A DNA stretch of 64,000 bases from the NCBI RefSeq assembly GCF_001513785.1, contig NZ_LNQS01000010.1, positions 1-64,000 on the forward strand, read 5' to 3'. The stretch comes from Rheinheimera sp. EpRS3. GTDB taxonomy: Bacteria; Pseudomonadota; Gammaproteobacteria; Enterobacterales; Alteromonadaceae. The notes under the pieces were generated by a model. That model had not been told where the DNA came from. It did not search any database and saw only the letters and a program-made list of their open reading frames with translations. How positions within the stretch are numbered: the first letter of the stretch is position 1; the number at the start of each line of letters is the position of its first letter. Shown here piece by piece: positions 7,955 to 63,018 of this stretch. A program made the translations under genes and the position numbers.

Positions 7955-8051
7955 GAACCGGCTTACCCTAAACCAACCATTGCAGGCCAGGATGGCCGAA
8001 TCGAGCCTACAGGGACGTATTTACGGCGTGTTGGTGTGGGTGAACCGGTTC
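7955..8051 (+). repeat. Structured intergenic repeat, copy A (core 7972-8035)
   Basis: One of three copies of a conserved 64-bp element (others at 49145-49208, reverse, and 62938-63001). The core is bounded by ACCAA (7972) and TTGGT (8031). Inside are hairpin 1 (GGCCA-GGA-TGGCC), the block CGAATCGAGCC, hairpin 2 (TAC-AGGGAC-GTA) and the conserved TTTACGGCGTG. Outside the core GAACCGG (7955-7961) pairs with CCGGTTC (8045-8051), extending the outer stem. Copies B and C carry different paired bases at the same places. It lies in the gap between the GH31 gene and thrE-like gene. Confidence 0.85.
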
Positions 8052-8127
8052 GATGCCAATACGCAGATCTAATCTCTCTGGTAACAGCGCGCTTTTGCAT
8101 TACAATGAATAAGTTACCCCCTAATGG

Positions 8128-9363
8128 ATGCCGCCTGTGTACACAGCTGATTTTAATCATAAACGCAAATTTGTCGTTAAATTGGGCAAGATGCTGCACA
8201 AGTACGGTACACCTGCCTACCGGCTGGAAGCACATTTATCCGAGCTAACAACCCACCTGGGGTTAAAAGGCTCATTTATTATCTCCCCCACCTCGATGAC
8301 CTTTGTGCTGTGGACCGACGGCCATGAGCAGGAGTACACCCATGCCTCACGGGTTAACCCCGGCGATCTGGATTTAGGTGCACTGTCGCGTACTGACGAA
8401 CTAGTCGATCAGGTGTTGCAGGGCAACGTCAGCATTAACGAAGCCGATGCACTGCTGGATGCTATTGATGTGCGCCCCAGCTCTTACGGTAAGCTGGCCA
8501 CAGCGGTAGCGATGATGGCATCCGGCGGGGCTTTTGCTATGTTAATGGCCACCAGTTGGAATGATGTACTGTGGTCGTCATTGTTATCACTGTTGGTTTA
8601 CCTGTTTATGCTGTGGGCCGCCCGCTCGCCGCGCATTGCCAATATGCTCGAGCCTTTAGTGGCACTGGCCGCCGGTATTGGCGCCTGCGCCATCAGCAGT
8701 TATATCGACCCCGGCATTAATATTCGTTTAACCGTGCTATCAGCCATTATTTCGTTTATTCCAGGGTTAGCTCTGACCATCGGCTTTGCTGAACTGGCCG
8801 CGCGGCATCTGGTATCGGGCAATGCCCGCATTATGGATGCGCTGATGCTGCTGTTTAAGCTGTATTTTGGCGCCTTACTGGGTATAGCTATAGGTTTTGC
8901 CCTGTTCGGTGTGGTCGATTTTGTTAAGCCGCCGCCAATCTCGCGCCACTTTGCCTGGCTGGCTGTAGGCATACTGGTAAGCTCGCTGATCGTGCTGTTT
9001 AAAAGCCGTGGCAAATATACGCTGTGGTCTTTAGCCGCCGGCTTTATCGCTTATGGTGTCAGCATTACCGGTGCCAGCATGTTCGATTACACCATAGGCG
9101 CATTCTTAGGTGCCTTTGCCGTTGGCCTATACAGCAACCTGTTTACCCGGTTGGCCAATGCACCGGCCGTTATCGTCGCTATGCACGGCTTAATCGTGCT
9201 GGTGCCGGGTAGTAAAACCTATATCGGTTTAAACTCGCTGATTTCAGGTCAGGACTTTGTTGTGTCTGACCGCGTGGGCCAGCAAACCTTTCTGATTTTA
9301 ATGGCGCTGGTAGCCGGGCTTATTTTTGCCAACGTAGCACTGCCGCCGAAAAAAAGTTTGTAA
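8128..9363 (+). CDS. ThrE-family threonine/serine exporter (YjjP/YjjB fused)
   Basis: A 411-residue inner-membrane protein of the ThrE family, in which the YjjP-like N-terminal half (cytoplasmic region with KYGTPAYRLE and FIISPTSM motifs, then membrane helices) and the YjjB-like C-terminal half are one polypeptide. About ten hydrophobic segments run from residue 125 to the end. Known members export threonine, serine or other small metabolites such as succinate. Substrate here is not determinable. It starts 77 bases after the extended structured repeat. Confidence 0.88.
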   Translation: MPPVYTADFNHKRKFVVKLGKMLHKYGTPAYRLEAHLSELTTHLGLKGSFIISPTSMTFVLWTDGHEQEYTHASRVNPGDLDLGALSRTDELVDQVLQGNVSINEADALLDAIDVRPSSYGKLATAVAMMASGGAFAMLMATSWNDVLWSSLLSLLVYLFMLWAARSPRIANMLEPLVALAAGIGACAISSYIDPGINIRLTVLSAIISFIPGLALTIGFAELAARHLVSGNARIMDALMLLFKLYFGALLGIAIGFALFGVVDFVKPPPISRHFAWLAVGILVSSLIVLFKSRGKYTLWSLAAGFIAYGVSITGASMFDYTIGAFLGAFAVGLYSNLFTRLANAPAVIVAMHGLIVLVPGSKTYIGLNSLISGQDFVVSDRVGQQTFLILMALVAGLIFANVALPPKKSL

Positions 9364-9440
9364 TAGTATTCAGCCGTTGTCGATTTCATCGTTGCCGTAA
9401 CGACCAGTTATACCTTTGATGGTAAAACAGGAGCAACAAC

Positions 9441-9875
9441 ATGAATCACAGCCAACAAGTACAACAAATTACCGATCTGCTTACCAGTTGGGCTAACGCA
9501 TTGCGCCGCAAAGACGTTAGCAAAATTATGACACTGTACCATGACGACATTATTGCTTTTGATGCGATAGCGCAGTTGCAATTTAAAGGCAAAGCCGACT
9601 ACCGCGAGCATTGGCAACGCTGCATGGAGTTTTGCAGCGGCGAATCGATGTTTGAAGTGCATCAGCTAAAAGTGCAGGCTAACGAGCAACTGGCGTTTAG
9701 CCACAGCCTGAACCACTGTGGCGGCACCAATGACAAAGGTGAGATGCAAAGCTGCTGGATGCGCGCCACACAGTGTTGGCAACGTGGCAGCGATGGCTGG
9801 AAAATAGTGCACGAGCACTACTCGATGCCATTTGATATGGAAAGCGGTACTATTCTGTCAAACTTAGCGCCTTAA
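9441..9875 (+). CDS. NTF2-like / SnoaL-like small protein
   Basis: A 144-residue cytoplasmic protein with the cone-shaped NTF2-like fold signature: N-terminal helices (LTSWANALRRKDVSKIMTLY), the acidic DDIIAFD turn, and a strand-rich C-terminal half (RATQCWQRGSDGWKIVHEHYS). Relatives include ketosteroid-isomerase-like and DUF4440 proteins. The ribosome site CAGGAG precedes the ATG. It lies 11 bases before the YciI gene and is part of a three-gene operon ending in an ECF sigma factor. Confidence 0.82.
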   Translation: MNHSQQVQQITDLLTSWANALRRKDVSKIMTLYHDDIIAFDAIAQLQFKGKADYREHWQRCMEFCSGESMFEVHQLKVQANEQLAFSHSLNHCGGTNDKGEMQSCWMRATQCWQRGSDGWKIVHEHYSMPFDMESGTILSNLAP

Positions 9876-9886
9876 GGAGCACAACG

Positions 9887-10231
9887 ATGAAATATCTGTG
9901 TCTGGTATATAGCGACGAAAACACCTTGCATAGCCTGCCCGACAGCCCGCATGACAGCGAATGCTTGGCCTACGCTGAAAAAATACACGGCAGCGGCCGT
10001 ATGCTGGCCGCCGAAGCCCTGCAACCGGTCAGCACTGCCACTACCATCCGGGTGCGTAGCGGCAAAGTCAGCATTACCGACGGCCCTTTTGCCGAAACTA
10101 AAGAGCAACTGGCCGGCTTTTACCTGGTAGAAGCGCATGATTTAAACGAAGCGATCCAAATTGCCAGCGGCATACCGGCAGCCCGGGTAGGCTCGGTAGA
10201 AGTACGGCCAGTGCGCCAGCTTGAGGTATAA
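9887..10231 (+). CDS. YciI/DGPF-domain protein
   Basis: A 114-residue member of the YCII (DGPF) family, with the hallmark TDGPFAETKEQLAGFYLVEA segment (about residues 63-83). Such proteins are the standard genomic partners of ECF42-type sigma factors. It starts MKYLCLVYSDE, a typical family start, with AAGGAG upstream. The gap to the sigma gene is only 7 bases, so the two are translated from one transcript. The biochemical role of DGPF proteins in this context is not established. Confidence 0.92.
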   Translation: MKYLCLVYSDENTLHSLPDSPHDSECLAYAEKIHGSGRMLAAEALQPVSTATTIRVRSGKVSITDGPFAETKEQLAGFYLVEAHDLNEAIQIASGIPAARVGSVEVRPVRQLEV

Positions 10232-10238
10232 CCCTTAG

Positions 10239-11471
10239 GTGGCAGCTGTAACAATGCAGCAGCAGATCAGCGCACTGTATCAGCAGCAGTCGCGTAAAGT
10301 GCTGGCTACGTTGATCCGCCTGCTGGGCGATTTTGACTTAGCCGAAGAAGCCCTGCACGAAGCCTTTCATGCTGCGCTGCAACAATGGCCAAAGGACGGC
10401 ATACCAGCCAACCCCAGTGCCTGGCTGATATCGGCCGGGCGCTTTAAAGCCATAGATCAGCTGCGTAAAACCGCACGCCTCACCCAACTGCCAGATGAAA
10501 TACTGCAACAGCTAACAGCAGAAGACGCGCCAGATCAGCAACCGATAGCCGATGACCAGTTGCGACTGATTTTTACCTGCTGCCACCCCAGCTTAGCCGC
10601 CGATGCGCAACTGGCCCTAACACTACGCGAAGTATGCGGCTTAACCACCGAGCAAATTGCCAGCGCCTTTTTAACCAGCCCGGCCACGGTGGCGCAGCGT
10701 ATAGTGCGCGCCAAGGGCAAAATACGCGATGCGCGCATTCCGTACGAAGTGCCACCGCCAGCAGAATTACCGCAGCGGCTTGATGCCGTACTGCAGGTAA
10801 TTTATCTGCTGTTTAACGAGGGCTATTCGGCCTCCAGCGGCGTGCAATTGCTGGATATCAGCTTAAGTGATGAAGCCATCCGCCTGGGCCGCTTAATGCT
10901 GCAACTGCTACCCGATGCTGAAACCGCAGGTTTGCTGGCACTGATGCTACTGCAACATGCCAGACGCGCGGCGCGCATCAGCGCCAGCGGCGAGCTGGTA
11001 TTACTACCCCAGCAAAACCGCAGCTTATGGCAACACCATGAAATAACGGAAGGCAGCGAGCTGGTGCAATGGGCGCTGCGCACCCGCCGTATTGGCCCTT
11101 ACACCTTGCAAGCCGCCATTGCCGCCATCCATAGCGAAGCGGCGACGCCAGCAGACACAGACTGGCATGAAATTACCGGCTTATATAATTTACTGTTGCA
11201 GGCCGATCCGTCGCCGGTTGTCGCCTTGAACCGTGCCGTAGCCATTGCCATGCGTGACGGCCCGGCCGCCGGCCTGGCATTGATCAGCGAACTGGAATTA
11301 CAGGGCGAGCTAAACCAATATCATCTGCTATACGCCGCCAAAGCTGATTTGCTGCGCCAGCTTGGCCTAAAAATGGAGGCGCTTAACGCCTACCAGCAAG
11401 CGCTCAGCCATTGTAAGCAGGCCCCGGAGCAGCGCTTTTTGCAGCAACAAATAGCGGCATTACAAAGCTGA
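10239..11471 (+). CDS. RNA polymerase ECF sigma factor, ECF42-like with C-terminal extension
   Basis: A 410-residue sigma factor, about twice the length of a minimal ECF sigma. Region 2 is at about residues 15-80 ([16 protein letters not shown], then [18 protein letters not shown]) and region 4 at about 110-165 ([37 protein letters not shown]). The remaining 240 residues form a helical TPR/DUF6596-like domain ([32 protein letters not shown]), diagnostic of the group paired with DGPF proteins. The GTG at 10239 is used here; the ATG at 10254 ([12 protein letters not shown]) is equally possible. No anti-sigma gene is adjacent, and this group is thought to be regulated by its own extension. Confidence 0.9.
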
Positions 11472-11500
11472 TAGCAGCCGGCACTGGTCCGGGTTGTGGC

Positions 11501-11514
11501 TGAATACGTATGCA
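11501..11514. promoter_or_regulatory. Palindromic operator (LacI-type), site 2
   Basis: TGAATACGTATGCA differs from the perfect palindrome at 3516 by one base. It lies 78 bases upstream of the neopullulanase start at 11592, nearly the same distance as site 1 from its gene. Confidence 0.72.
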
Positions 11515-11591
11515 AAACCGCCGCTAACCTTGCGTCATAATGGTGCACTGCTTCACGATAGGCAACCCAAGTGTCAGCGGACCTTTTTGCT

Positions 11592-13454
11592 ATGTACCAC
11601 AAAACCCTTATTGCCTTAACCACCCTGCTAAGCAGCCATGTAATGGCAGATAGCTTTGTTATTGAACGGCTGGAACCAGCCAACTGGTGGGCGGGTATGC
11701 AGCACCCCGAACTGCAGCTGATGTTATATGGTAAAGACATCGCCCGGCTGCAGCCACAGGTACAGTATGACGGCGTAACACTTAACGGTGTTACCCGCAC
11801 CAATAACCCCAATTACCTGTTTGTTAACCTGACATTGGTCGACAACGTAAAACCCGGCGATATTGCCCTGCATTTTCGCCATAATGGCGAGACGGTACTA
11901 AGCCATAACTACCCGTTATTACAGCGCAGCGCCAACTCTGCCAAACGCCAGGGCTTTAACCCGGCCGATGTTATTTACCTGCTGGCACCAGACCGCTTTG
12001 CCAACGGCAACCCGGGCAATGACAATATGCCCGGCATGCTGGAACAAGCTAACCGCCAGGATGACAATGGCCGCCACGGCGGTGATATTGCCGGTATGCA
12101 AAATGCCCTGCCCTATATTGCAAGCATGGGCTACACCGCCATCTGGCCCATGCCGCTGACAGAAAACAACCAAAGTGCTTATTCTTACCACGGCTATGCC
12201 GCCACCGATTTATACAATATTGATGCGCGCTATGGCACTAATCAGCAATACCGCGATTTTGTCGCGGCTGCCAATGCCAAAGGCATTAAAGTCATTCAGG
12301 ATATTATTCTGAACCATATTGGCCATCAGCACTGGTGGCTAAGCGATTTACCCGATGACAACTGGCTGAATAAGCAAGATATTCTGCAAGGTGCGCCCTT
12401 TGTTGGCACCAACCACAGCCGCAGCACCATACAAGACCCTTACGCCAGCAAAGCCGACACCGAACTGTTTACCGACGGCTGGTTTGTCGACACCATGCCC
12501 GACCTCAACCAGCGCCACCCGCTACTGGCCACTTACCTTATTCAAAACAGTATCTGGTGGGTGGAATACGCTAATTTGGCCGGTATCCGCGAAGACACCT
12601 ACAGCTATGCCGACAAGCAATTTTTAAGCGAATGGGCCCGGCGCATTATGCTGGAATACCCCGATTTTAATATCGTTGGCGAAGAATGGAGCCCCAACCC
12701 GTTGATTGTGTCGTACTGGCAGCGCGGTAAACAAAATAAAGACGGTTATGTATCGCACACCCCGGCAATGCTGGATTTTCCGCTGTACGATGCCCTGTTA
12801 AAAGCACTAACCACAGCTGAAGACTGGAACAGCGGCTGGATTGGCCTGTATGAAATGCTTAGCAACGACCATGTGTATGCTGACCCGTTTAATCTGGTCA
12901 CCTTTGAAGGCAACCACGACGCCGCCCGGCTGTTTTCGGTGCTGGACGAAGATTTTAACTTATACCGCATGGCAGTAAGTTACCTGCTCACCATGCGCGG
13001 TATACCACAAATGTTTTACGGCACTGAAATCGCCATGACCAGCCCCAAAGTACGCGACGACGGCAAAGTACGCGCCGACTTCCCCGGCGGCTGGGCTGGC
13101 GACAAAGTTAATGCCTTTACCGGAAAAGGCTTAAACGCCACGCAAAAAAGTGCCCAGCAGTTAGTAAAAACCCTGCTTAACTGGCGCAAAACCGCCACGG
13201 CTATTCACAGCGGCAAGCTAATGCATTTTGCCCCCGATAATGGCACCTACACTTTTTTCCGCTATAACGAAGCGCAAACAGTAATGGTGGTAATGAATAA
13301 ACAAGCCAAAGCAATAACGCTGGATTTAGCCCGTTTTAATGAAGTACTGCCACAAGGTAAAACCGCAACAGAGGTTATAACCGGCAAAAGCTTAAAGCTG
13401 GATAAACAACTCACCGTACCAGCGCGAGGTACTTTGGTACTCGATATTCGTTAA
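11592..13454 (+). CDS. Neopullulanase/cyclomaltodextrinase-type GH13, exported
   Basis: A 620-residue GH13 enzyme with a signal peptide (MYHKTLIALTTLLSSHVMA); the in-frame GTG at 11571 would add 7 residues before it. Residues about 20-120 match the cyclomaltodextrinase N-terminal beta-sandwich (Cyc-maltodext_N). The catalytic domain shows region I DIILNH, region II GIREDTYSY with Asp335, region III VGEEW with Glu364 and region IV GNHDAAR with Asp443. The motif MPDLN before region II marks the neopullulanase subfamily. It probably linearises cyclodextrins or cuts pullulan and maltodextrins in the periplasm. It is monocistronic, with an operator-like palindrome upstream and a strong terminator after it. 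Confidence 0.93.
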   Translation: MYHKTLIALTTLLSSHVMADSFVIERLEPANWWAGMQHPELQLMLYGKDIARLQPQVQYDGVTLNGVTRTNNPNYLFVNLTLVDNVKPGDIALHFRHNGETVLSHNYPLLQRSANSAKRQGFNPADVIYLLAPDRFANGNPGNDNMPGMLEQANRQDDNGRHGGDIAGMQNALPYIASMGYTAIWPMPLTENNQSAYSYHGYAATDLYNIDARYGTNQQYRDFVAAANAKGIKVIQDIILNHIGHQHWWLSDLPDDNWLNKQDILQGAPFVGTNHSRSTIQDPYASKADTELFTDGWFVDTMPDLNQRHPLLATYLIQNSIWWVEYANLAGIREDTYSYADKQFLSEWARRIMLEYPDFNIVGEEWSPNPLIVSYWQRGKQNKDGYVSHTPAMLDFPLYDALLKALTTAEDWNSGWIGLYEMLSNDHVYADPFNLVTFEGNHDAARLFSVLDEDFNLYRMAVSYLLTMRGIPQMFYGTEIAMTSPKVRDDGKVRADFPGGWAGDKVNAFTGKGLNATQKSAQQLVKTLLNWRKTATAIHSGKLMHFAPDNGTYTFFRYNEAQTVMVVMNKQAKAITLDLARFNEVLPQGKTATEVITGKSLKLDKQLTVPARGTLVLDIR

Positions 13455-13465
13455 CCTTAAACACC

Positions 13466-13489
13466 CCACAGCGGCGAAAGCCGCTGTGG
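13466..13489 (+). terminator. Rho-independent terminator after the neopullulanase gene
   Basis: Perfect 10-bp stem CCACAGCGGC / GCCGCTGTGG with a GAAA tetraloop, followed by TTTCT, 11 bases after the stop codon. Confidence 0.85.
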
Positions 13490-13746
13490 TTTCTCAAAGC
13501 CCTGTCATTTTTTTAACGCACGTAAGTACTGTATAACCCACTGTAAAACAGCGCTATTTTTGTTAATAAGTTAATCGCAAGCTTAAACCCCGCTTTCACG
13601 CAGGCACTTTTTCAGCACAGTGCAAGATGTTGTTGATTAAGTGACAAATGTTGGCTAGTTTAGCAGAATGTAAAAACATGATAGAAGGGTGAATCTCGCG
13701 GTGAAAGCAGGGGTTTTGCCTTCTAATAATATTGTTATGGCAATAA
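13490..13746. other. AT-rich gene-free stretch at the left edge of the cassette island
   Basis: No convincing gene. Composition becomes more AT-rich than the flanking genes. GTTATGG at 13734-13740 resembles an integron core site and would be the left boundary of the first cassette, but I see no attC or attI structure before it. A short AGAAGG/CCTTCT inverted repeat lies near 13683-13723. Confidence 0.4.
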
Positions 13747-14205
13747 ATGGTGATCGGTGTGTTTGATAAAAACGGAATCTATTTTGAGCACCCAGAAAGC
13801 TGGCAGTTAACTGAAGAGCTTTGGGATGATGATATTTCCGCATTAACATTCGAGGATGAAAATGGGATATATATGATTGACATCTACCATGCTGGCAAAG
13901 GGCCAGAACTATTGGATTATGCAAATAAACACTTTTCCTGTTTTAAAAAAGAGCTTCCGTTCTTATCTAAAGTCATTGGCGATCCTGTCATCACAAATAT
14001 TTCTGTTGATGGGGTTTCTGGTTTGGTGTTGGAGTTTATGGTTAAGTCATTTTTTCTATCAAAGACTACCTATCTAAACTCTATATTTAGAGTTTCAGGC
14101 CAGAAAAGTATTAGCTTTATTTCTGCGCAATACCCAAAATCAGAAGGCAACGAGTTGTCGGTAGGGCTAGGTCAAGTATTGGCAAGTTACCATGCAAACG
14201 AGTGA
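13747..14205 (+). CDS. Integron cassette protein 1, unknown function
   Basis: A 152-residue protein without a signal peptide that I do not recognise. It begins 7 bases after a possible core site (GTTATGG) and ends 5 bases before an attC site, the usual compact layout of a gene cassette. It is acidic near the N-terminus (EELWDDDISALTFEDENG) and has a strand-rich middle. Codon use and AT content differ from the flanking amylase genes, consistent with acquisition. No clear Shine-Dalgarno precedes the ATG, which is common in cassettes. Confidence 0.6.
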   Translation: MVIGVFDKNGIYFEHPESWQLTEELWDDDISALTFEDENGIYMIDIYHAGKGPELLDYANKHFSCFKKELPFLSKVIGDPVITNISVDGVSGLVLEFMVKSFFLSKTTYLNSIFRVSGQKSISFISAQYPKSEGNELSVGLGQVLASYHANE

Positions 14206-14209
14206 AGAC

Positions 14210-14286
14210 CATAACAAAGCCAGTCAGCATCGCTCACTACGTTCGCTGGACCTCGTTTCACTCGGCCGCTGCTGGCGGCGTTAGGG
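14210..14286 (+). repeat. attC recombination site 1
   Basis: The left arm TAACAAAGCCAGTCAGC (from 14212) pairs with the right arm GCTGCTGGCGGCGTTA, which ends in the core GTTAGGG (14280-14286). Pairing of GCCAG-T-CAGC with GCTGCTGGC leaves an unpaired T, the extrahelical base typical of attC. It lies between two small genes with the same orientation. Confidence 0.82.
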
Positions 14287-14300
14287 CTAAGGAGTCAAAC

Positions 14301-14606
14301 ATGAGTGTAGAAAGTCAAATTCTGCTTGATGCCGGGCTAAGTGATGGTACCGCGAAATACCACATTTCAGACAACGGGCGAGATTTTGTTCTTGAAGTAG
14401 CGCAGAATGAAAAGCTTATCGAAGCTCTGGACGCTATAAATTTAAAGGGATTAGCGACAACAATTCCATTGCATCAACGAGCTGTTGATAGCACAGGGAC
14501 ACCAGAGCTAAAAATCCAAGATTTTAAAATATACCCAGCGCCAAGAAACAAAACTGTACGCAATGGTATCCACAGCTATGTTTTTATTTATGCGCCAAAG
14601 CAGTAA
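14301..14606 (+). CDS. Integron cassette protein 2, unknown function
   Basis: A 101-residue protein starting MSVESQILLD, with AAGGAG 6 bases ahead of the ATG. The start lies 14 bases after the attC core and the stop lies 2 bases before the next attC, so this is a complete cassette. There is no signal peptide or obvious membrane segment. I do not recognise the family; the C-terminal half (KIQDFKIYPAPRNKTVRNG, then SYVFIYAPKQ) looks strand-rich. Confidence 0.72.
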   Translation: MSVESQILLDAGLSDGTAKYHISDNGRDFVLEVAQNEKLIEALDAINLKGLATTIPLHQRAVDSTGTPELKIQDFKIYPAPRNKTVRNGIHSYVFIYAPKQ

Positions 14607-14608
14607 GG

Positions 14609-14689
14609 CCCTAACAAGCGCCATCAAAAACGCGCCCTATGGGCGCTCGACTCGCAACAAGTTGCTCGCGTTTGTGGCGGGCGTTATGT
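14609..14689 (+). repeat. attC recombination site 2
   Basis: Left arm TAACAAGCGCCATCAAAAA (from 14612) is complementary to the right arm CGTTTGTGGCGGGCGTTA, ending at core GTTATGT (14683-14689). The centre has further inverted repeats: GCGCCC-TAT-GGGCGC, and GCAAC-AA-GTTGC inside CGA-rich arms. This is the classic TAACAAGCGCC...GGCGGGCGTTATG form of chromosomal-integron attC sites. Confidence 0.9.
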
Positions 14690-14738
14690 GTTCTATTAAA
14701 GCTCGTTTCAATTTTATCATCAACGTTAGGAAAATAGG

Positions 14739-14804
14739 ATGCCAAGCGAGATAGAAGCCCTCGGGAGATTATATTTATGGCAAGTTGCTCTCAGAAGAAT
14801 TTGA
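14739..14804 (+). pseudogene. Truncated third cassette gene
   Basis: An open frame starts at ATG 14739 (MPSEIEALGRLYLWQVALRRI), about 50 bases after the attC core and preceded by AGGAAAATAGG. It stops after 21 residues at a TGA (14802-14804) that is the first triplet of the REP-like repeat. The likely history is a third cassette cut by insertion of, or recombination at, the repeat; a genuine 21-residue peptide cannot be excluded. Confidence 0.45.
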
Positions 14805-14875
14805 AAAAGGGGTCGTAGCTAATTAACGACATACAAGAAATGAAAAAGGGGTCGTAGCTAATTAACGACATACAG
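14802..14875. repeat. REP-like hairpin pair (units 1 and 2)
   Basis: Two copies, at 14802 and 14841 (period 39), of a 35-base unit beginning TGAAAAAGGGG. Within each, GTCGT pairs with ACGAC around the loop AGCTAATTA, and a GGGG tetranucleotide sits at the 5' foot of the hairpin. A tetranucleotide plus short hairpin is the architecture of REP elements mobilised by RAYT (Y1) transposases. No such transposase is in the window. Confidence 0.7.
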
Positions 14876-42562: not shown

Positions 42563-42564
42563 GT

Positions 42565-49110: not shown

Positions 49111-49133
49111 GGCTCAGGCGTAACGCATGAGCC
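49111..49133. terminator. Compact hairpin after pyrC
   Basis: GGCTCA pairs with TGAGCC, and the inner GCG pairs with CGC around TAA, giving a nearly perfect 23-base hairpin 7 bases after the pyrC stop. No T-run follows, so it may be a transcript-end stabiliser rather than an intrinsic terminator. Confidence 0.5.
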
Positions 49134-49221
49134 GATATACTCACGTCAACACGCCGTAAACCCATCCCTGGGGGCTCGATTCGGCCATCCTGGCCTGCAA
49201 CGGTTGACTTAGAGTACATCG
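49133..49221 (-). repeat. Structured intergenic repeat, copy B (core 49145-49208)
   Basis: Reverse-orientation copy of the 64-bp element. Read on the minus strand the core is bounded by GTCAA and TTGAC, with hairpin 1 GGCCA-GGA-TGGCC, the block CGAATCGAGCC, hairpin 2 CCC-AGGGAT-GGG and TTTACGGCGTG. Outside the core CGATATACTC (49133-49142) pairs with GAGTACATCG (49212-49221), with one internal mismatch. It lies between the convergent pyrC and comM genes. Confidence 0.85.
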
Positions 49222-49246
49222 ACTCCTGCTTTAATATACGCGAGAC

Positions 49247-55686: not shown

Positions 55687-55690
55687 CACC

Positions 55691-56257
55691 TCAGCTAAGT
55701 GGCGTTTCTGCCGGCTCTGCTGCTGGGGTTTCCAGAATTAACTTCAGGTTTTCCAGGCCTTGTTGTAAATCTGCCGCTATCATTGCTTCAACATCCATAA
55801 ACAGCAGCATCAGGTTCATTGGATACGGCATATGGCCGGCAAAACCCCAGGTCACCCGGGTTTGTTCTGCGCTAACGGCTTCTGTTTGCATATAAGCTGG
55901 CGACACCGCGGCATAAGGCTGATAAAAACGCAGCTCGTAATCTATCCGCGAGCCTTCCACTATGGCTTTTATTTCCTGCTCGCCGGTGCCAACATCTGAA
56001 TTTTCACTATGCCAGCCCGAAACAAAACCCACAGTGCCGTCAACACCGCGATCAGTTTTTTGCATATTCGGGTCCTGGGCGGCCCATACACTGAAGTTGT
56101 CCTGATTAGTTAAAAAACGAATATAATCAAACACCACCGTCACCGGTTGCTGAATAACCACCTGAGTTTCTACTTTATAATCCTGCTTTACAAATAATGC
56201 CGCCAGCAAGGGGATCGCCAACAACGCTAGCACCACAACCAGTACTTTCTTTAACAT
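55691..56257 (-). CDS. SRPBCC (polyketide-cyclase-like) protein with N-terminal membrane anchor
   Basis: A 188-residue protein with an N-terminal hydrophobic anchor (MLKKVLVVVLALLAIPLLAALFV), then a START-like domain (EVTQVVIQQP-type start, VFDYIRFLTNQDNFSVWAAQDPNM, and VTWGFAGHMPYPMNLMLLFM). Relatives bind lipids or polyketides. AAGGA lies 9 bases ahead of the ATG at 56257, so an in-frame TTG upstream is not needed. It converges on the barrel gene with 4 bases between the stops. Confidence 0.85.
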   Translation of the reverse strand: MLKKVLVVVLALLAIPLLAALFVKQDYKVETQVVIQQPVTVVFDYIRFLTNQDNFSVWAAQDPNMQKTDRGVDGTVGFVSGWHSENSDVGTGEQEIKAIVEGSRIDYELRFYQPYAAVSPAYMQTEAVSAEQTRVTWGFAGHMPYPMNLMLLFMDVEAMIAADLQQGLENLKLILETPAAEPAETPLS

Positions 56258-56597
56258 AGTGAGCAATCCTTATTATGCTGCGACATTATTCTGCTGTAAT
56301 GCCTGATGGCGCTGTTACCCTTTGTTTAAACGCCGCCTGTTTAAACCCGACCCGCTTAAACATAGCTCGCTTTTTGTTAACACTCCAGCAGTGGCTGCTA
56401 TTGTTAGCAAAAGCGTTATTTGTGTCGTCAATTCAACCACATAGTGGTCATAACCGCCAGGCTTTAGCGCCACTTTAAAATATAAGTGTTTAATTACAAC
56501 AACTTAAATTCGGGCATTTATTTTGCAGTGCTTTTGTTAAGCGCTTTGGCAAACTTAGCCATTATTGAATAAACCAGACAAACAACAAGGACATCAT
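56258..56597. other. 340-bp divergent region without a supported gene
   Basis: It contains an open frame (56275-56478) without ribosome site and with poor protein character, which I reject. AT content is higher than in flanking genes, as expected for two divergent promoters (the SRPBCC gene leftward, the beta-repeat lipoprotein rightward). No repeat or RNA is recognised. Confidence 0.45.
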
Positions 56598-57350
56598 ATG
56601 AAAAGCACTGTTATTACTGTATTCGCTGCCGGCTTACTCAGTGGCTGTGTTATTTATGTTGGCAACGGCCACGCCGGCGACTTACAGCATGAAGAACGCA
56701 AACTGACATTAGATGGTGCAGCTTTAACACAGCTGGTAGCAGATACCGGCGCCGGTAAACTGGATATTATCGGTGAGGCCGGCCGCAGCGAAATAGAAAT
56801 GGTCGCCAACATTTATTATTACCAGGCTGACGATATCCGCCTGAGCCTGACAACCAGTGGCAATAGTGCGGTACTGGAAGCCGGGTTCGATAAAAGCTTT
56901 TATAACGGCAACAGCCCTTATATCGACGTGCTCATTAAGGTTCCTGAACACTTCGGCCTGACGCTGGATGACGGCTCGGGCGACACTGACATCCGTGGTC
57001 TGCAGGGCGATTTACAGGTAGACGATGGTTCCGGTGATTTGCGCATTAGTGGCGGCGCCAATGTAAAGGTGGAAGATGGCTCGGGCAATTTACTGATTGA
57101 GCAGGTCAGCGGCAAACTGACAGTAGATGATGGCTCCGGTGATCTGACTATCCGTCAGGTAACCGGTAATGTAACGATTGAAGATGGTTCAGGCGATATC
57201 GTGGTCAACGCGGTGGGCGGTGTCGTTACTATTGATGACGGCTCCGGCGATATTAACGTAGACGGTGCCGGCGGCCTGACCATTCTCGACAGCGGCTCCG
57301 GTGGTTTAAAGCTGAATGCCATAAACGGCCCGGTAAAAATTAACGATTAA
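56598..57350 (+). CDS. DUF4097-like lipoprotein with repeated DGSG motifs
   Basis: A 250-residue lipoprotein; the start at 56598 has AAGGA upstream and gives a signal peptide with lipobox LSGC (Cys16). After a short linker there are seven repeats of about 17-19 residues, each of the form [LVI]-x-[DE]DGSG[DN]-[LIT]-x-[LIV] (for example VDDGSGDLRISG, VEDGSGNLLIEQ, IEDGSGDIVVNA). The first (about 125) is LDDGSGDTDIRG and the last is degenerate (LDSGSGGLKL). This is the beta-solenoid pattern of DUF4097 proteins. The regular DGSG turns could bind calcium. Function unknown. Confidence 0.85.
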   Translation: MKSTVITVFAAGLLSGCVIYVGNGHAGDLQHEERKLTLDGAALTQLVADTGAGKLDIIGEAGRSEIEMVANIYYYQADDIRLSLTTSGNSAVLEAGFDKSFYNGNSPYIDVLIKVPEHFGLTLDDGSGDTDIRGLQGDLQVDDGSGDLRISGGANVKVEDGSGNLLIEQVSGKLTVDDGSGDLTIRQVTGNVTIEDGSGDIVVNAVGGVVTIDDGSGDINVDGAGGLTILDSGSGGLKLNAINGPVKIND

Positions 57351-57450
57351 GCCGGTTAACCAGACAAATTTTGTTTATTTCACGCTATCGCATTTGGCTT
57401 AAGGCAAAACTGCGGTAGCATTACGCCTTTGTGTTCAACCTTCAGGCGTT

Positions 57451-60400
57451 ATGACAACCGATACTGCGTTTCCACTTAGCCAGCAACAGCTGGAACACTG
57501 GTTTGATGCCATGACCTTTCACCGGGCTCAGGCGTATTTGCAGGCCGGTAAAGTGGTCAAGCTGGAATACAACAGCGACTTATCTGAGATCAGCGCCCAG
57601 GTGTGGGGCGCCGCCTTTACGCCGTACCGGCAATTTATCAGCCTGAAACACAACAGCAGCGGCTGGCAATTGCAAAACCGCTGTACCTGCCCGGTAGGCG
57701 CTAACTGCAAGCATGTGCTGGCCGTATTGCTGCGGCTGCAACGCGATTACCAGCAACACAAGCTGCAACTGGAGCAACAACCGGTACGCCAGCTCAACCA
57801 GTGGTTTGAACAGGTAGAACAATCACTTGCCCCGGCGCAAGATGAAAAAGATGTGGTGCTGTATCTATTGTCATACGGCCAGGCCGGGCTGCAACTTAGC
57901 CCGCGCCGGGTGCGCGAAAGCAAAAAAGGCGGTTATACCAAAGGCGTTGCCATTGGCAAATACGATTTGGTGACACCCGGCATACCGCACTGGATTGATG
58001 AACAGGATTACCGCCTGCTAAGTTATTTCCGTGCTCAAAGCCTACGCGATTTACCGCTACTGGAAGGTGACTGGGGCTATCAGTTGTTGCAACAATTACT
58101 GGGCAGTGGCCGCTGCTTTTTTTCTGAAGCGCGCTACGCGGTGCAGCAAGGGCCGAAACGGGCACTGGCTTTTACCTGGCAGGATACCGCCGCAGGCCAG
58201 CAACTGGGCTGGCAACTGGACGACGATGACCGCGACTTCGAACTGGTATATACCGATCCGCCCTGTTATCTGGACACCAGTTACTACCAGATAGGCGAAC
58301 TGGACACCGCCCTGAGCAGTGCGCAGTTAAAGCTGTTAAACAAAATGCCGCCTATACCGCAGCAGGCGCTGGCACCCAGCATCAGTCGCTTGCAGCAGCT
58401 GTTTAACCAAACCAGCCTGCCATTACCCAGCGCCGCCGGATTAAAACAAATCAGCAGCACACCTCGGCCGGTATTGCAGCTAAAAATGCTGCCACACAAA
58501 GCTAAAAACCGCAGCGAACCCACTGCTGTACTGCAGTTTCAGTATGCCAGCTACCTGTTGCCGCTTAATCTGACACAAGCACAAACTGAGCTGGTGCAGG
58601 ACAACACCACCGTTTTTATAAAACGCCACCGGGCGACAGAAACCAGCGCGCTGGAGCAATTGTTACAGCTTGAACTGCTGCAACTGCCGGCATTGCCACC
58701 ACCTTATAGCGAGCAAAGTGCGTTTGGCGTCGGCGAAGGGCCAGACAACCCGCTGCTATGGCAACCCTTGCTGGACGCCCTGCCACAGTTGGAACAACAA
58801 GGCTGGCATATCGCCCGCGATGATAATTTTAATCTGGATATATTAAGCGATGCGCCCTACCTGCAGGTGCAGGACAACGCTGTAGGTGGTTTTGCTTTAG
58901 CCATACAGGTTGATATCGACGGCACTCAGGTGCCGCTGTTGCCGTTGATCAGCCAGTGGCTGCGCCAGCACGGCCTGCCCGACGCCGGTAAACCCATCTG
59001 GTTGTCATTACCGCAAGGTAAGCTGGCCTTACCGCTGGCGCTGATCCAGCCGTTTATCGACACCATTATTGAACTGCTAAACCCGAACAAGCCACAGTTC
59101 AGCCTGGATTTACCAGCCTTTAAAGCGGCATTATTACCGCCAGAAACCGCGAAGGACATTCAGTTTTTAAACGCCCAGCGTGTACAGCGCCTGAGCCACC
59201 TGTTACATAATTTTAATGGTATTACGCCGTGCGACGTGCCGCAGGGCCTGCAAGCATCACTACGTGATTATCAATTACAGGGCTTAAGCTGGCTGAGCTT
59301 TTTGCGTGAGTTTGGCTTAGGCGGCATTTTGGCCGACGATATGGGCCTGGGTAAAACACTGCAAACGCTAAGCCTGCTACTGCTGCAAAAGCAGCGTGGT
59401 GAACTGCAACACCCGGCGCTGATTATCTGCCCTACCAGCGTGTTGGGTAACTGGCTGGCCGAGGCTGAGCGGTTTACACCACAGCTGCGGGTATTACAAA
59501 TTCATGGCAATAAACGCCAGCCTCTGTTTAATGAACTGGCCAATTACGATCTGATCGTAACCAGCTATCCGCTGGTGGTGCGGGATCATAAGTATTATCA
59601 GAACCAGCCGCTGAGCGCCGTTATTCTGGACGAAGCCCAGCATATTAAAAATGCCGGCAGCCTGGCGGCCAAAGCTGTGCGCTTATTAAAAGCTGACTTT
59701 AAACTGGCACTGTCGGGCACCCCGCTGGAAAACCACTTAGGCGAGTTAAAATCGATTTTTGATTTTGTGCTGCCGGGCCTGCTGGGTAATGACGCCCACT
59801 TTAACCAGGTATACCGCAAACCGATTGAAAAACACGGCGATGCAGAGCGCGCCCATGCATTAAAGGCCCGTATCGCGCCCTTTATGCTGCGCCGCACCAA
59901 GGCTCAGGTAGCCAGCGAGTTACCAGACAAAACCGAGATAGTGCAACTGCTGGAATTAGAAAGCGACCAGCGCAACCTGTACGAAAGTATCCGCCTGGTA
60001 ATGGAAACCAAAGTACGCGAATTATTTGTGCAAAAAGGCGTGGCCGCCAGCCAGATCCAGTTTTTAGATGCACTGTTAAAGCTGCGCCAGGCCTGTTGCG
60101 ACGCCCGGCTGGTGCCGGTTGAGCATGCCCGCTCGGTGCAAAGCAATGCCAAGTTACAATGGCTGCGCGACACCCTGCCGGAAATGCTGGAAGAGGGCCG
60201 CAATATTTTACTCTTCAGCCAGTTTGCCAGCATGCTGACACTGATAGAAGATGAGCTAAACGCACTGGGCATCAGCTACAGCAAACTCACCGGCCAGACC
60301 AAACACCGCCAGCAACAGATTGATGCCTTTCAAAGTGGTGAAACCCGGGTATTTTTGATCAGTTTAAAAGCCGGCGGCACCGGTTTAAACCTTACCGCCG

Positions 60401-60654
60401 CCGATACCGTAATTCACTACGATCCGTGGTGGAACCCGGCCGCAGAAGCGCAGGCTACCGATCGCGCCCACCGCATTGGCCAGAAAAAAGCCGTGTTTGT
60501 TTATAAGCTTATCGCCAGCAATACGGTAGAGCAAAAAGTACAACTGCTGCAGCAACACAAACGCCAGCTGGCCGACCAGCTGTTTGCCGGTGGCCAGGGT
60601 CAGCCATGGCAAGGCAAGGCCGAAGATTTACTGGCGTTATTCAGTGCTGACTAA
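57451..60654 (+). CDS. SWI2/SNF2-family helicase with SWIM zinc finger
   Basis: A 1067-residue ATP-dependent DNA translocase. Near residues 78-88 the SWIM motif CTCPVGANCKH (CxC...CxH) is clear. The Snf2 ATPase follows at about 600-1060: motif I DDMGLGKT (about 630), motif II DEAQHIKN (about 727), and helicase C with LLFSQFASMLTLIEDEL, ISLKAGGTGLNLT, and QATDRAHRIGQ. Between them lies a long, Gln/Leu-rich bacterial SNF2-associated region. It probably remodels protein-DNA complexes or RNA polymerase, like other bacterial Snf2 proteins, but its target is unknown. It converges on the amylase gene with 11 bases between the stops. Confidence 0.93.
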   Translation: MTTDTAFPLSQQQLEHWFDAMTFHRAQAYLQAGKVVKLEYNSDLSEISAQVWGAAFTPYRQFISLKHNSSGWQLQNRCTCPVGANCKHVLAVLLRLQRDYQQHKLQLEQQPVRQLNQWFEQVEQSLAPAQDEKDVVLYLLSYGQAGLQLSPRRVRESKKGGYTKGVAIGKYDLVTPGIPHWIDEQDYRLLSYFRAQSLRDLPLLEGDWGYQLLQQLLGSGRCFFSEARYAVQQGPKRALAFTWQDTAAGQQLGWQLDDDDRDFELVYTDPPCYLDTSYYQIGELDTALSSAQLKLLNKMPPIPQQALAPSISRLQQLFNQTSLPLPSAAGLKQISSTPRPVLQLKMLPHKAKNRSEPTAVLQFQYASYLLPLNLTQAQTELVQDNTTVFIKRHRATETSALEQLLQLELLQLPALPPPYSEQSAFGVGEGPDNPLLWQPLLDALPQLEQQGWHIARDDNFNLDILSDAPYLQVQDNAVGGFALAIQVDIDGTQVPLLPLISQWLRQHGLPDAGKPIWLSLPQGKLALPLALIQPFIDTIIELLNPNKPQFSLDLPAFKAALLPPETAKDIQFLNAQRVQRLSHLLHNFNGITPCDVPQGLQASLRDYQLQGLSWLSFLREFGLGGILADDMGLGKTLQTLSLLLLQKQRGELQHPALIICPTSVLGNWLAEAERFTPQLRVLQIHGNKRQPLFNELANYDLIVTSYPLVVRDHKYYQNQPLSAVILDEAQHIKNAGSLAAKAVRLLKADFKLALSGTPLENHLGELKSIFDFVLPGLLGNDAHFNQVYRKPIEKHGDAERAHALKARIAPFMLRRTKAQVASELPDKTEIVQLLELESDQRNLYESIRLVMETKVRELFVQKGVAASQIQFLDALLKLRQACCDARLVPVEHARSVQSNAKLQWLRDTLPEMLEEGRNILLFSQFASMLTLIEDELNALGISYSKLTGQTKHRQQQIDAFQSGETRVFLISLKAGGTGLNLTAADTVIHYDPWWNPAAEAQATDRAHRIGQKKAVFVYKLIASNTVEQKVQLLQQHKRQLADQLFAGGQGQPWQGKAEDLLALFSAD

Positions 60655-60665
60655 GCATAAACTAC

Positions 60666-62090
60666 TTAGTCGGCATACCACATTCTGACCTGGCGTGCCG
60701 GAATGCTGAAGTTGTAGCTGCCACCATTGATATACACCAGATTGCCGCCACTTAGCACATCGCGGTAATTGCGATACCAGTAAAAACGGCCGTTGGTGTT
60801 AATGTTAAAGCTCTGGTTGCTGCTGCACTTATTAATGCCTACCACCCCTTCCTGGCCACGACGGAACAAAATGGCGCAATCATTCCAGGCCAGCATTTCC
60901 ATGCCCTGCCCCTGCATACGGTTATGGAAATTCAGCATTTTGCCAATATGATCGGCTTTATAAGCATTGACCCAGCGGTTGCTATCAGTACCGGTGCTGT
61001 CACTAAATATCAGCGGTTTACCGCCATCACGGCCCATAATGTAGGCATAGGCCAGATACTCGTCGGTAGCATCCATAATCAGATAGCGAAAGCCGTCATT
61101 GGTAGGAATATCATGCGTAATCGTAAAGGTTACCGCCCGGCTGTTTTGCAGCGCCTGGCCGTTAGATAACGGGTTAACCAGCTGGCTTAAGCTACCGCCA
61201 AAACCAAAGGCACTGCGAATCGCGCTAAACAGCGGAAAATCGTAGGCTTTATGGTCGGTATAGGCCAGGTAAGGCGATAAAAAGCTGTCGTACTCATTAT
61301 TACCGGCGCCTCCACTGGTAATTATTTCACCAAATACGTACATGCCGCTTTTAATGCTGCTGGTGAAAATTTCATTAATATGCCAGATAGTCATATGCTT
61401 GGCCGCATCAACCCGAAAGCCCTTTACGCCCAGTGCTTTTAACGCACTAAGATAAGCGCGCTGTTGCTGTACCACCCAGCTGTTGGGGTTTAAATCCGGT
61501 AAACCGGCATCACCCGCGCCGCCGCACAGCCGCCAGTTTTGTACCTGCCATACATCGTTATAGTTGCTGATACAGTTGGCCGGGTTAAAGTCGCTGGCAC
61601 CAAACAAGCCCTGGGTTAAATTGCCAAATAAACGCTGGTTATTCCAGTAACTGCTGTTACTGCCATAGCTATTTACTGCCGCCTGGCCGGGGAAATCGGT
61701 CGCGCCGTTACGCTCATTTGCCATATGGTTTAATACTATATCGGCGTATACATCAACTTTACGCGCCGGGTTGGCGTCGTTCAGGGCATTGATCATATTT
61801 ACAAACGACTGCTTGTTGCCTTTGCAGTGGTCAATTACGCGGATATCCTGCGGCTGATAACGCTGCCACCAGGCACAGTTACCCGCGTTCGATTTTAGCG
61901 GCGGCGCCACTAATACCGCTTTGTAACCCAGATTTTTAATTTCAGTCGCCTTAGCGGCGACTTCGTCATAATGCCAGTCAAACGCATGTAAAATCGCATC
62001 GGCAACAGCAGCCGACGAAAATACGCCTGAACTAACAACTAATGTCAGCCACAATAGCTGACGCTTTAACATGGTACTGATTACTTGCAT
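60666..62090 (-). CDS. Secreted GH13 alpha-amylase
   Basis: A 474-residue secreted alpha-amylase with a signal peptide (RQLLWLTLVVSSGVFSSAAVADA). AGGA lies 7 bases before the ATG at 62090. Catalytic residues are Asp228 in GFRVDAAKH and Glu255 in FGEIIT. Region I is DIVLNHMAN. Region IV is the unusual ITHDIPTN with Asp327. Its Cys pairs (NCAWW, IDHCK, NCIS, RLCGG, NDCAI, NKCSS) suggest disulfides of an extracellular enzyme. It resembles Aeromonas/Pseudoalteromonas-type alpha-amylases that attack starch outside the cell. Unlike the other glucan loci here it has no TGCATACGTATGCA-type site upstream. Confidence 0.9.
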   Translation of the reverse strand: MQVISTMLKRQLLWLTLVVSSGVFSSAAVADAILHAFDWHYDEVAAKATEIKNLGYKAVLVAPPLKSNAGNCAWWQRYQPQDIRVIDHCKGNKQSFVNMINALNDANPARKVDVYADIVLNHMANERNGATDFPGQAAVNSYGSNSSYWNNQRLFGNLTQGLFGASDFNPANCISNYNDVWQVQNWRLCGGAGDAGLPDLNPNSWVVQQQRAYLSALKALGVKGFRVDAAKHMTIWHINEIFTSSIKSGMYVFGEIITSGGAGNNEYDSFLSPYLAYTDHKAYDFPLFSAIRSAFGFGGSLSQLVNPLSNGQALQNSRAVTFTITHDIPTNDGFRYLIMDATDEYLAYAYIMGRDGGKPLIFSDSTGTDSNRWVNAYKADHIGKMLNFHNRMQGQGMEMLAWNDCAILFRRGQEGVVGINKCSSNQSFNINTNGRFYWYRNYRDVLSGGNLVYINGGSYNFSIPARQVRMWYAD

Positions 62091-62359
62091 TGGTCTATCC
62101 TTTATTTTTCATTGGTTTATGCAAGCCATCCGTGAGTGGGTAGCAGTGTGGTTAAGCCCACACCACTAAGTGTTATTGACAACAAGCTCCGTTAACACAC
62201 CGCGAGCCTACGCCTTTAGCTGCAAAATTTATTGCCTATATACGCCAATTTTACAACTTAGCTACATTGGGAACAAAGTGTCTCATTGACCCGTTGCCAT
62301 GCCGGATTTAGGCTTAGCAACACCTGAGTTAACACCAGACAACAGCAGGCAGAATAACA
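62091..62359. other. 269-bp divergent promoter region
   Basis: Between the amylase and the Mpo1-like gene. GTGTGG pairs with CCACAC (62145-62162) around a 6-base loop. No small gene, operator of the TACGTA type or RNA is recognised. Confidence 0.35.
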
Positions 62360-62860
62360 ATGAAAAACCTGACCGAACATTTAAGCCAGTACGCTTTGTA
62401 CCACCGCGACGAGCGCAATATTCTTACCCACTACGCCGGCATACCGCTAATAGTGGTGGCAGTATTTGCCCTGCTGTACTGGCCATTATTTACGCTGGCA
62501 GGCATGGTTATTACACCGGCATTATTATTGTTTATTGGCAGTATGGTGTTTTACCTGCGGCTGGACTTGCGCTTTGGCCTGGTTATGTTTGTTTTTAGCG
62601 GCATTAGCCTGCTGCTGGCGGCGAAACTGGCCGCCTTACCCTTCGGGCTTTGGCTTGGGAGTTCAATCGCCCTCTTTGTTGTCGGTTGGGTATTGCAGTT
62701 TATTGGCCATTATTACGAAGGCAAAAAACCGGCCTTTGTCGACGACTTAGTGGGCTTACTGATTGGCCCATTATTTATTATGGCCGAACTGGGTTTTAAA
62801 CTTGGCCTGCGCAAACCGCTGCAGCACCGCATTGAGCAAATTGCCGGTAAGACGCATTAA
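62360..62860 (+). CDS. Mpo1/YGL010w-like (DUF962) membrane protein
   Basis: A 166-residue inner-membrane protein of the Mpo1-like family. The conserved start LSQYALYHRDERNILTHYAGIPLIV and the middle QFIGHYYEGKKPAFVDDLVGLLIGPLFIMAE hold the His residues that coordinate iron in this family. The yeast homologue is a dioxygenase of 2-hydroxy fatty acids (phytosphingosine degradation). Whether the bacterial protein acts on fatty acids is not shown. Four membrane segments are visible. Structured repeat C follows. Confidence 0.9.
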   Translation: MKNLTEHLSQYALYHRDERNILTHYAGIPLIVVAVFALLYWPLFTLAGMVITPALLLFIGSMVFYLRLDLRFGLVMFVFSGISLLLAAKLAALPFGLWLGSSIALFVVGWVLQFIGHYYEGKKPAFVDDLVGLLIGPLFIMAELGFKLGLRKPLQHRIEQIAGKTH

Positions 62861-62919
62861 GTCAGTTGCTGTTCAGCGCGGCTGATTAAGCTGAGCAGCG
62901 AAAATAAATTGTCGTAGCA

Positions 62920-63018
62920 GAGATCGGCTTGCTGTAAGTCAACCGTTGAAGGCATGGATGCCTGAGTCGAGCCCCCACGGAAGGGTTTACGGCGTGTTGA
63001 CGTGAGCAAGGCGAGCTC
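62920..63018 (+). repeat. Structured intergenic repeat, copy C (core 62938-63001)
   Basis: Third copy of the element. The core is bounded by GTCAA (62938) and TTGAC (62997). Hairpin 1 is AGGCAT-GG-ATGCCT, instead of the GGCCA/TGGCC pair of copies A and B. Then comes GAGTCGAGCC, hairpin 2 CCC-ACGGAA-GGG and TTTACGGCGTG. Outside the core GAG-A-TCG-G-CTTGC (62920-62932) pairs with GCAAG-G-CGA-G-CTC (63006-63018). It lies between the Mpo1-like gene and endA. Confidence 0.85.

Follow-up and report, generated by a model that had tools for sequence, protein, structure and literature searches.

A dispersed intergenic repeat of gammaproteobacteria with a two-hairpin, GGA-loop fold that probably acts as a CsrA-bound RNA

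Here we analyzed an intergenic element that occurs in three copies in a stretch of 64,000 nucleotides of Rheinheimera sp. EpRS3 (contig NZ_LNQS01000010.1, positions 1 to 64,000; hereafter the window), together with its relatives in other genomes. The best explanation of the results, to which we give a probability of about 0.6, is that the element is a dispersed and apparently non-autonomous intergenic repeat of gammaproteobacteria, a relative of the Rfam family TwoAYGGAY, that acts as a structured RNA of the strand bearing GGA in its loops (the GGA strand) and is probably bound by a dimer of CsrA. We are highly confident of the structured single-strand element itself. Its fold is kept by compensating changes, the constraint lies on one strand, the loop motif recurs at a regular spacing, and copies are dispersed through genomes and present or absent at the same spot in related species.

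Results

The fold is maintained by compensating changes

The element consists of a long outer stem that opens into a three-way head, whose parts are, in order, hairpin 1, a short linker with GAGCC at its end, hairpin 2 and the sequence UUYACGGCG. Copies A, B and C of the window (Table 1) belong to the short form, with 98 nt each including the outer stem. An initial annotation of the window, made from the letters alone, had placed these copies, with their stems, hairpins and conserved blocks, after gene ends, and had taken the covariation between them to imply selection on, or copying of, a folded form. Direct reading of the sequence agrees on the places, the parts and the setting (A and C lie between two plus-strand open reading frames (ORFs), B between convergent ones), and the pair counts that follow bear out the covariation. 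The copies also do not drift in sequence without compensating changes, the behavior that the same annotation had considered to make an RNA function unlikely; double changes are common in both alignments.

In the alignment of 26 copies from the EpRS3 genome, 93.8% of 805 cells were paired and 19 of the 31 pairs showed double changes; none of 500 shuffles reached any of the five covariation measures, and the covariation score of 0.388 fell to 0.044-0.082 when one side was slid by 1-3 columns. In 118 diverse copies from many genera (117 of them distinct), 91.4% of 3533 cells were paired against 55.4% after shuffling, the score was 0.876 against 0.214 for shuffled and at most 0.149 for slid alignments, and all 13 pairs of the outermost helix showed double changes, with five or six standard pair types each. 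Nearly every pair varies in this set, so that two of the five measures did not exceed the shuffles: 122 of the 500 shuffles reached the number of double-change pairs, and 5 of 500 that of further pair types. The 118-copy alignment was fitted to the covariance model and hence leans toward structure, and the shuffled and slid controls leave the kinship between copies in place. Among genomes the outer stems differ widely in sequence and keep their pairing, with a mean aligned length of 32.9 in 78 copies from the named genomes and between 20.3 and 26.4 in each of the four remaining groups of copies.

The letters initially given for hairpin 1 were right, and this hairpin is not a single fixed helix: its GGCC and GGCAT forms pair one base out of register with each other, which makes it the weakest helix (75% of its cells paired in the 26 EpRS3 copies). 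RNAalifold, run on the aligned copies, did not predict hairpin 1 and put a short alternative pairing in its place. The blocks CGAGCC and TTTACGGCGTG are conserved, as had been claimed. Folds predicted for copies in other genomes show them as base-paired in part and not single-stranded throughout: around hairpin 2, GCC and GGC of copies from other genera form a pairing that leaves a UUYAC bulge. A long form of the element carries approximately 73 nt extra at hairpin 1, and in the five cases read (loci L020, L023, L024, L025 and L029; our labels are L for loci and G for genomes) the added hairpins also have GGA loops. Four copies stand in direct tandem with a period of approximately 180 bp at L168 (3110-3744), an array that could yield one RNA with several GGA loops. 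In Methylotuvimicrobium buryatense, copies with hairpin 1 swapped for another repeat (CACGCCATCC..GGCG; L398-L437) form an apparent recombinant family.

Constraint acts on a single strand

In a double-stranded palindrome G.T and A.C mismatches should be equally frequent, because each is the opposite-strand form of the other. We aligned the stem arms with a scheme that scores G.U and A.C both as plain mismatches, requiring a stem alignment score of at least 9, in a set of 238 elements from four groups, which excludes genomes G089 and G005, and in one of 283 elements from five groups. Read on the GGA strand, the stem zone of the 238 elements contained 268 G.U and 45 A.C, and the sequence beyond the stem 64 and 84. 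Over the whole aligned stem of the 283 elements the G.U:A.C counts by group were 126:44, 54:20, 110:50, 42:15 and 49:3. Related copies are not independent, so that P-values overstate the significance, and the agreement among genome groups is the stronger point. Separated by gene context the counts were 55:10 for tandem sense, 63:14 for tandem antisense, 73:10 for convergent and 26:2 for divergent copies (sense versus antisense, P = 0.82). Because G.U greatly exceeds A.C in every context, one folded single strand must be under constraint whatever the direction of the neighboring genes, and this strand is most likely RNA rather than single-stranded DNA (ssDNA).

The loops carry a CsrA-type motif at regular spacing

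GGA was found in both loops of all 26 aligned EpRS3 copies, with varying adjacent loop letters, and in hairpin 1 of 78 of the 84 named-genome copies, which present 66 distinct arms and had been found by a pattern containing hairpin 2 and not hairpin 1. The sequence CANGGANG, which we take to be the CsrA motif, occurred at hairpin 1 in 60 of those 84 copies (against 1.3 in shuffled windows), in 36 of 56 EpRS3 copies and in 32 of 39 copies from genomes of the order, and at hairpin 2 in 51 of the 56 and 34 of the 39. The distance from GGA to GGA was 19-21 nt in 80/84 named-genome, 47/56 EpRS3, 35/39 order and 51/82 M. buryatense copies. Among diverged copies of G089 and G005 (n = 45) the mismatch per site was 0.022 for GGA and 0.197 for the other fixed letters, approximately a ninefold difference, and among diverged EpRS3 copies (n = 12) it was 0.056 and 0.128.

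Selection in vitro by SELEX (systematic evolution of ligands by exponential enrichment) gave RUACARGGAUGU as the CsrA site, which mostly lies in a loop of six letters; the repeat of CsrB is CAGGA(U/A/C)G, and a CsrA dimer bridges two sites lying 10-63 nt apart (PMC7652899). Sites of this SELEX and CsrB kind are present in hairpin 2 of the element, as UAC-ANGGAY-GUA or CCC-ANGGAY-GGG, and, as CAGGATG, in hairpin 1 where this has the GGCC form, and the spacing of the two GGA falls inside the range bridged by the dimer; the traits of a CsrA-binding RNA that can be judged by sequence, namely GGA in hairpin loops, the CANGGANG context and two sites 10-63 nt apart, are all present, less clearly for hairpin 1 in M. 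buryatense. The EpRS3 genome has one csrA gene, and the CAGGATG of the GGCC-form hairpin 1 recurs many times in its CsrB-like small RNA (sRNA). Two candidates for such sRNAs with CAGGATG repeats were observed (G000:C8:796044-796341, L033; G000:C10:244446-244738, L034), scoring 41.3 and 26.9 bits with RF00018, both below its cut-off of 71. Because of the loop motif, the spacing, the CAGGATG shared with the CsrB-like sRNA and the presence of csrA, the GGA-strand RNA of a copy is predicted to bind CsrA, through one dimer, a prediction that we hold to be rather probable.

Relatives among known RNA families

No Rfam model reached its cut-off in the window copies, and the nearest families were found through copies elsewhere, namely TwoAYGGAY (RF01731) and Ysr224 (RF02770). 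One locus from the order, L054, gave a same-strand, end-to-end match to TwoAYGGAY of 51.7 bits, above the cut-off of 43, and five more (L036, L040, L045, L047 and L052) gave such matches below it, making 6 of 25 order loci, 5 of which had been picked after the first TwoAYGGAY match, in L036 (1 of 7 sources). TwoAYGGAY appeared in 2010 among candidate motifs, from human gut, gammaproteobacteria and Clostridiales (PMC2864571), and was proposed in 2014 as a candidate CsrA-binding sRNA (PMC4333381). Rfam places it in clan CL00106 together with CsrB. Like that family, the element has two GGA-loop hairpins on one outer stem, in the same order and on the same strand; unlike it, the element is dispersed in many copies, most of them below the cut-off or unmatched, its loops relax to ANGGAN, and its hairpin 2 sits on the GCC/GGC pairing with the UUYAC bulge.

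Once reverse-complemented, the Ysr224 consensus corresponds to the head of the element. The opposite strand of L059 matched it with 83.6 bits (cut-off 70), weaker antisense matches were found elsewhere (15 of the 25 order loci in all), and the window copies did not reach the cut-off. The element is a relative of TwoAYGGAY, and Ysr224, an sRNA of Yersinia, is its opposite strand. Ysr224 is among the 20 most prevalent sRNAs in one report (PMC9029176), transcripts of several of its copies are reported from Yersinia ruckeri (PMC12112432), and the literature text examined, in the parts available, did not tie it to TwoAYGGAY or to CsrA binding. The element also resembles the sRNAs of the CsrB, RsmB and RsmZ type, which offer the same motif in GGA hairpin loops to a dimeric protein. 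Those sRNAs come from a small number of genes per genome, each with numerous GGA motifs (22 in CsrB and 14 in CsrC of E. coli; PMC11882849), whereas a copy of the element is short, has two GGA loops and is one of many.

Distribution and turnover

A BLAST search with copy A gave 43 matching pieces in the EpRS3 genome, and the covariance model built from the 26 copies gave 60 matches there at E ≤ 1e-3, the 26 training copies and the 3 window copies included. Each of the 21 genomes examined from the genus had 7 to 60 matches; within the order, matches were present in 33 genomes out of 148, counting EpRS3. A strict head pattern found at least 117 stretches in a collection of species genomes; 80 loci among the matches listed presumably belong to gammaproteobacteria or to broadly named metagenome-assembled genomes, judging by record titles, and the carriers among these matches included Stenotrophomonas, Xanthomonas, Marinobacter, Microbulbifer, Methylococcales, Rheinheimera and others. 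With up to 2 mismatches the pattern occurred 658 times in M. buryatense 5G, 77 in Stenotrophomonas maltophilia D457, 30 in Arenimonas daejeonensis and 4 in one Cellvibrionaceae genome, and the reversed control pattern did not occur in any of the four. Copy A had no match in plasmid records and three short weak ones in phage records (E from 0.07 to 0.9); the head pattern was matched exactly in two viral contigs of IMG/VR (L269 and L270). The more distant relative L059 had matches in 16 plasmid records and in 5 of 5426 E. coli genomes. The plasmid matches have approximately 84% identity; one lies on NZ_CP067312.1 at 71630-71733 (L438), near an IS26 transposase gene and a frameshifted IS5-family transposase gene, and the others on 15 further records; 14 of the 16 plasmids are predicted to be conjugative, and most are from enterobacteria. 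In G089 (L342-L367) the element is embedded in larger repeats of several hundred bp.

At the locus of copy B, related genomes carry the element in the same orientation as the window (G162, G163, G151 and G153), in the opposite one (G157, G155, G161 and G165) or in its long form (G156), and others have short spacers without it (G150, G164, G152, G167, G166 and G158), other sequence (G159 and G160) or no spacer at all between two stop codons (G149 and G148). At the locus of copy C, the one clean empty site, a clean junction without the element is present in G161, G156 and G149, and no clear target duplication was seen. Two relatives of locus L071 lack only the head and retain the outer stem, and at the loci of copy A and of L069 the whole spacer differs in relatives.

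Copies in the window

The features of the three copies are collected in Table 1. A mechanical list of ORFs includes a minus-strand ORF of 110 amino acids (62857-63189) that spans copy C and is not taken for a gene.

Table 1. Copies of the element in the window and their hairpins
Feature	Coordinates	Strand	Basis and remarks
Copy A, whole element (outer stem and two-hairpin head)	7953..8050	+	covariance model R1, 108.1 bits; direct sequence
Copy A, hairpin 1, GGCC-AGGAT-GGCC; CAGGATG loop letters as in CsrB repeat; GGA 7990-7992	7985..7997	+	sequence; 26-copy alignment A2
Copy A, hairpin 2, TAC-AGGGAC-GTA; GGA 8013-8015	8008..8019	+	sequence; 26-copy alignment A2
Copy B, whole element, between convergent ORFs	49130..49227	-	covariance model R1, 113.1 bits; sequence; spot empty or filled either way in relatives
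Copy B, hairpin 1, GGCC-AGGAT-GGCC	49183..49195	-	sequence
Copy B, hairpin 2, CCC-AGGGAT-GGG	49161..49172	-	sequence
Copy C, whole element	62919..63016	+	covariance model R1, 93.4 bits; sequence; three relatives have an empty site
Copy C, hairpin 1, AGGC-ATGGAT-GCCT (CANGGANG)	62950..62963	+	sequence
Copy C, hairpin 2, CCC-ACGGAA-GGG (CANGGANG)	62974..62985	+	sequence

Discussion

A probable CsrA-bound RNA and the results that weigh against it

In the explanation that we prefer, GGA-strand RNA, transcribed from copies in EpRS3 as we infer, would fold into the long outer stem and a head of two hairpins, whose ANGGAN loops of the CsrA/RsmA type would lie approximately 20 nt apart. One CsrA dimer would most likely clamp both loops of a single copy, so that the transcribed copies would constitute a scattered reservoir of CsrA sites, the effect of which would be competition with mRNAs and with the CsrB-type sRNA.

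Several results weigh against this explanation. The G.U:A.C asymmetry is weaker when the stem near the head is left out (107:42, 37:20, 77:49, 30:14 and 11:1 in the five groups); counted per element in the stem at least 12 nt from the head, G.U was ahead in 46, 20, 30, 14 and 11 elements and behind in 12, 5, 18, 11 and 1. Moreover, G.T is a mild mismatch in ssDNA as well, and the asymmetry alone is not proof of RNA. The loops are less well kept in M. buryatense, where CANGGANG stands at hairpin 1 in only 18 of 82 copies, only 57 of the 86 near-exact copies hold a GGA in their hairpin 1 region, in part because some copies have hairpin 1 replaced, and mismatches per site (n = 51) are 0.137 in GGA against 0.180 in other letters. 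The exact SELEX core TACARGGATGT occurs in only 10 of 84 named-genome and 7 of 56 EpRS3 copies. At E ≤ 10 TwoAYGGAY matched none of 20 other EpRS3 loci, two of which matched Ysr224 weakly, nor did it match copies A and B; and Ysr224, the transcribed relative in Rfam, is modeled on the strand without GGA loops. Finally, placement relative to genes differs between genomes: sense 17, antisense 21, convergent 17 and divergent 7 in the named genomes (62 of 86 copies usable), and 17, 33, 20 and 30 for 100 M. buryatense copies, used from 115 sampled in 40 windows of 20 kb (5 overlapped called genes and 10 had no neighbor). Genes were called with a simple script based on ORFs and codon usage, with no annotation.

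Possible mobility of the element

The most serious alternative, which we nonetheless regard as unlikely, is that of a selfish DNA repeat of the MITE (miniature inverted-repeat transposable element) or REP kind, moving as folded ssDNA by means of an enzyme supplied in trans, the GGA loops being the recognition hairpins of this enzyme and the strand bias of the stem a consequence of folding as ssDNA instead of RNA. A MITE-like origin had been among the initial suggestions, and the results sustain the part concerning a dispersed repeat with turnover, while target duplications are not clearly seen. The 658 pattern matches in M. buryatense, the single spot that is filled or empty, in both orientations and with long and short forms, the clean empty site of copy C in three genomes and the G.U:A.C constraint that is alike in all gene contexts would fit such a repeat, as would the order of the copies in 40 close pairs, of which -/+ was the commonest (18). 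As in the REP, BIME and RAYT systems and the TIRtrons (PMC3733652), the copies are numerous intergenic palindromic repeats, some of them in inverted pairs; unlike the REP, BIME and RAYT systems, the element is approximately 100 nt long, has a two-hairpin head and showed no association with RAYT.

What speaks against this alternative is that no fitting transposase was found among Y1_Tnp matches and ten scanned ORFs, other transposase families not having been searched genome-wide. Copy number did not correlate with the number of Y1_Tnp matches over the 21 genus genomes (rho = -0.11, P = 0.64), G154 (42 copies) and G160 (25) have no Y1_Tnp match, and only 1 of 20 fetched Y1 loci (from 40 matches in all) had a copy nearby. 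The RAYT-type gene of the EpRS3 genome is flanked by a different repeat, and mobilization by RAYT was rejected on these grounds. Examination of the 21 ORFs standing alone between copies (one locus counted twice) identified, in the 10 that were scanned, six with housekeeping, transport or membrane matches, four without match and no transposase, so that a flanking autonomous gene was likewise discarded. No consistent bias for a replication strand was found either: in G089, 29 of 35 copies have one orientation to the halves of GC skew (Fisher P = 1.4e-4), a bias not taken at face value because copies there lie inside larger repeats, M. buryatense leans in the opposite direction (24:34 versus 41:24, P = 0.019) and the EpRS3 genome shows none (local skew, P = 1.0); insertion by replication strand was hence not retained. 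The loops, moreover, match a known RNA-protein motif.

Some further observations concern these loci. The Y1_Tnp locus with an element nearby has a match of 171 nt, the size of the long form (L333, 3123-3293), and the RAYT-type transposase gene of EpRS3 (Y1_Tnp; L031, 1474-2172) lies between short copies of the repeat AAAAAGGGGTCGGAGC. In three related species (L036, L037 and L049) copies approximately 1.1 kb apart enclose a gene that reads, as an ORF, like one of an ATP-binding cassette (ABC) transporter, and the element is antisense to two genes there; the pair was considered as a transposon and rejected, the enclosed gene being ABC-transporter-like and not a transposase.

Mobility could also act at the RNA level. 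The element may be a selfish one that spreads in a retroposon-like manner through its folded GGA-strand RNA, perhaps with CsrA, for which it would provide up to hundreds of docking sites. This reading, which we find distinctly improbable, comes from the constraint being equally strong in antisense copies, as though its target were the element itself rather than a message of the host. A literature search with the head sequence string and for retroposed RNA returned nothing.

Less probable explanations

A cis-acting hairpin at the 3' ends of mRNAs, serving as stabilizer or terminator after stop codons, was suggested by placement in the EpRS3 genome, for which 58 of the 60 matches were used (two near another fetched copy were left out): of the 58, 43 lie downstream of a gene that runs in their own direction, 31 of them 10-40 bp past its end, and only 3 of the 58 are divergent. 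We consider such a role as quite improbable. Even in EpRS3 12 of 33 tandem copies are antisense, and the other genomes do not show this placement; in M. buryatense placement roughly tracks the intergenic space, and among tandem copies antisense outnumbers sense (33 versus 17, P = 0.03). A plain 3'-end (untranslated region) role does not fit, given that antisense orientation to the neighbors is as frequent as sense orientation in the genomes other than EpRS3; antisense copies also show a similar stem asymmetry, and the two conserved loops would be unexplained.

Covariation without selection, by template-switch correction of imperfect palindromes, a known process that keeps arms complementary, would fit outer stems that are long, near perfect and widely different among genomes. 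Being blind to the strand it predicts equal numbers of G.U and A.C, against the 268:45 observed, and it leaves the conserved loops unexplained; the strand asymmetry already contradicts it, and we give it hardly any weight. The initial likening to the C4-type antisense RNA of phages, for which only a resemblance in architecture had been put forward, has practically no standing, since RF01695 appeared in none of five permissive Rfam searches (E ≤ 10) nor in the cut-off search of the window copies, and the only phage and viral matches are the three weak ones of copy A and the two contigs with the head pattern.

Implications

The link between TwoAYGGAY and Ysr224, the dispersal and turnover of the element, the evidence on its strand and the loop statistics are what this analysis contributes. 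Among the papers listed for TwoAYGGAY, for Ysr224 and for both together with CsrA and Bacillaceae-1, none was found that links the two families. Neither there nor among the papers listed on CsrA and repeats and on repeats of Stenotrophomonas, Methylomicrobium and Xanthomonas, which in part were the 10-15 listed out of hundreds or thousands, was any recognized as describing the element as a dispersed repeat; and dispersed CsrA-type repeats were absent from the available text of PMC5338858, PMC9788540, PMC11882849, PMC12306157, PMC12889724 and PMC7657543.

The comparison joins TwoAYGGAY and Ysr224, which are kept apart in Rfam, and suggests that the strand annotated for Ysr224 lies opposite to the one under constraint. 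The count of G.U versus A.C is a simple strand test that can be applied to other palindromic repeats, and the element offers a system in which repeat turnover and RNA structure are testable together. If CsrA does bind it, many gammaproteobacteria would carry tens to hundreds of scattered sites for this global regulator, and models of CsrA titration would need to take them into account.

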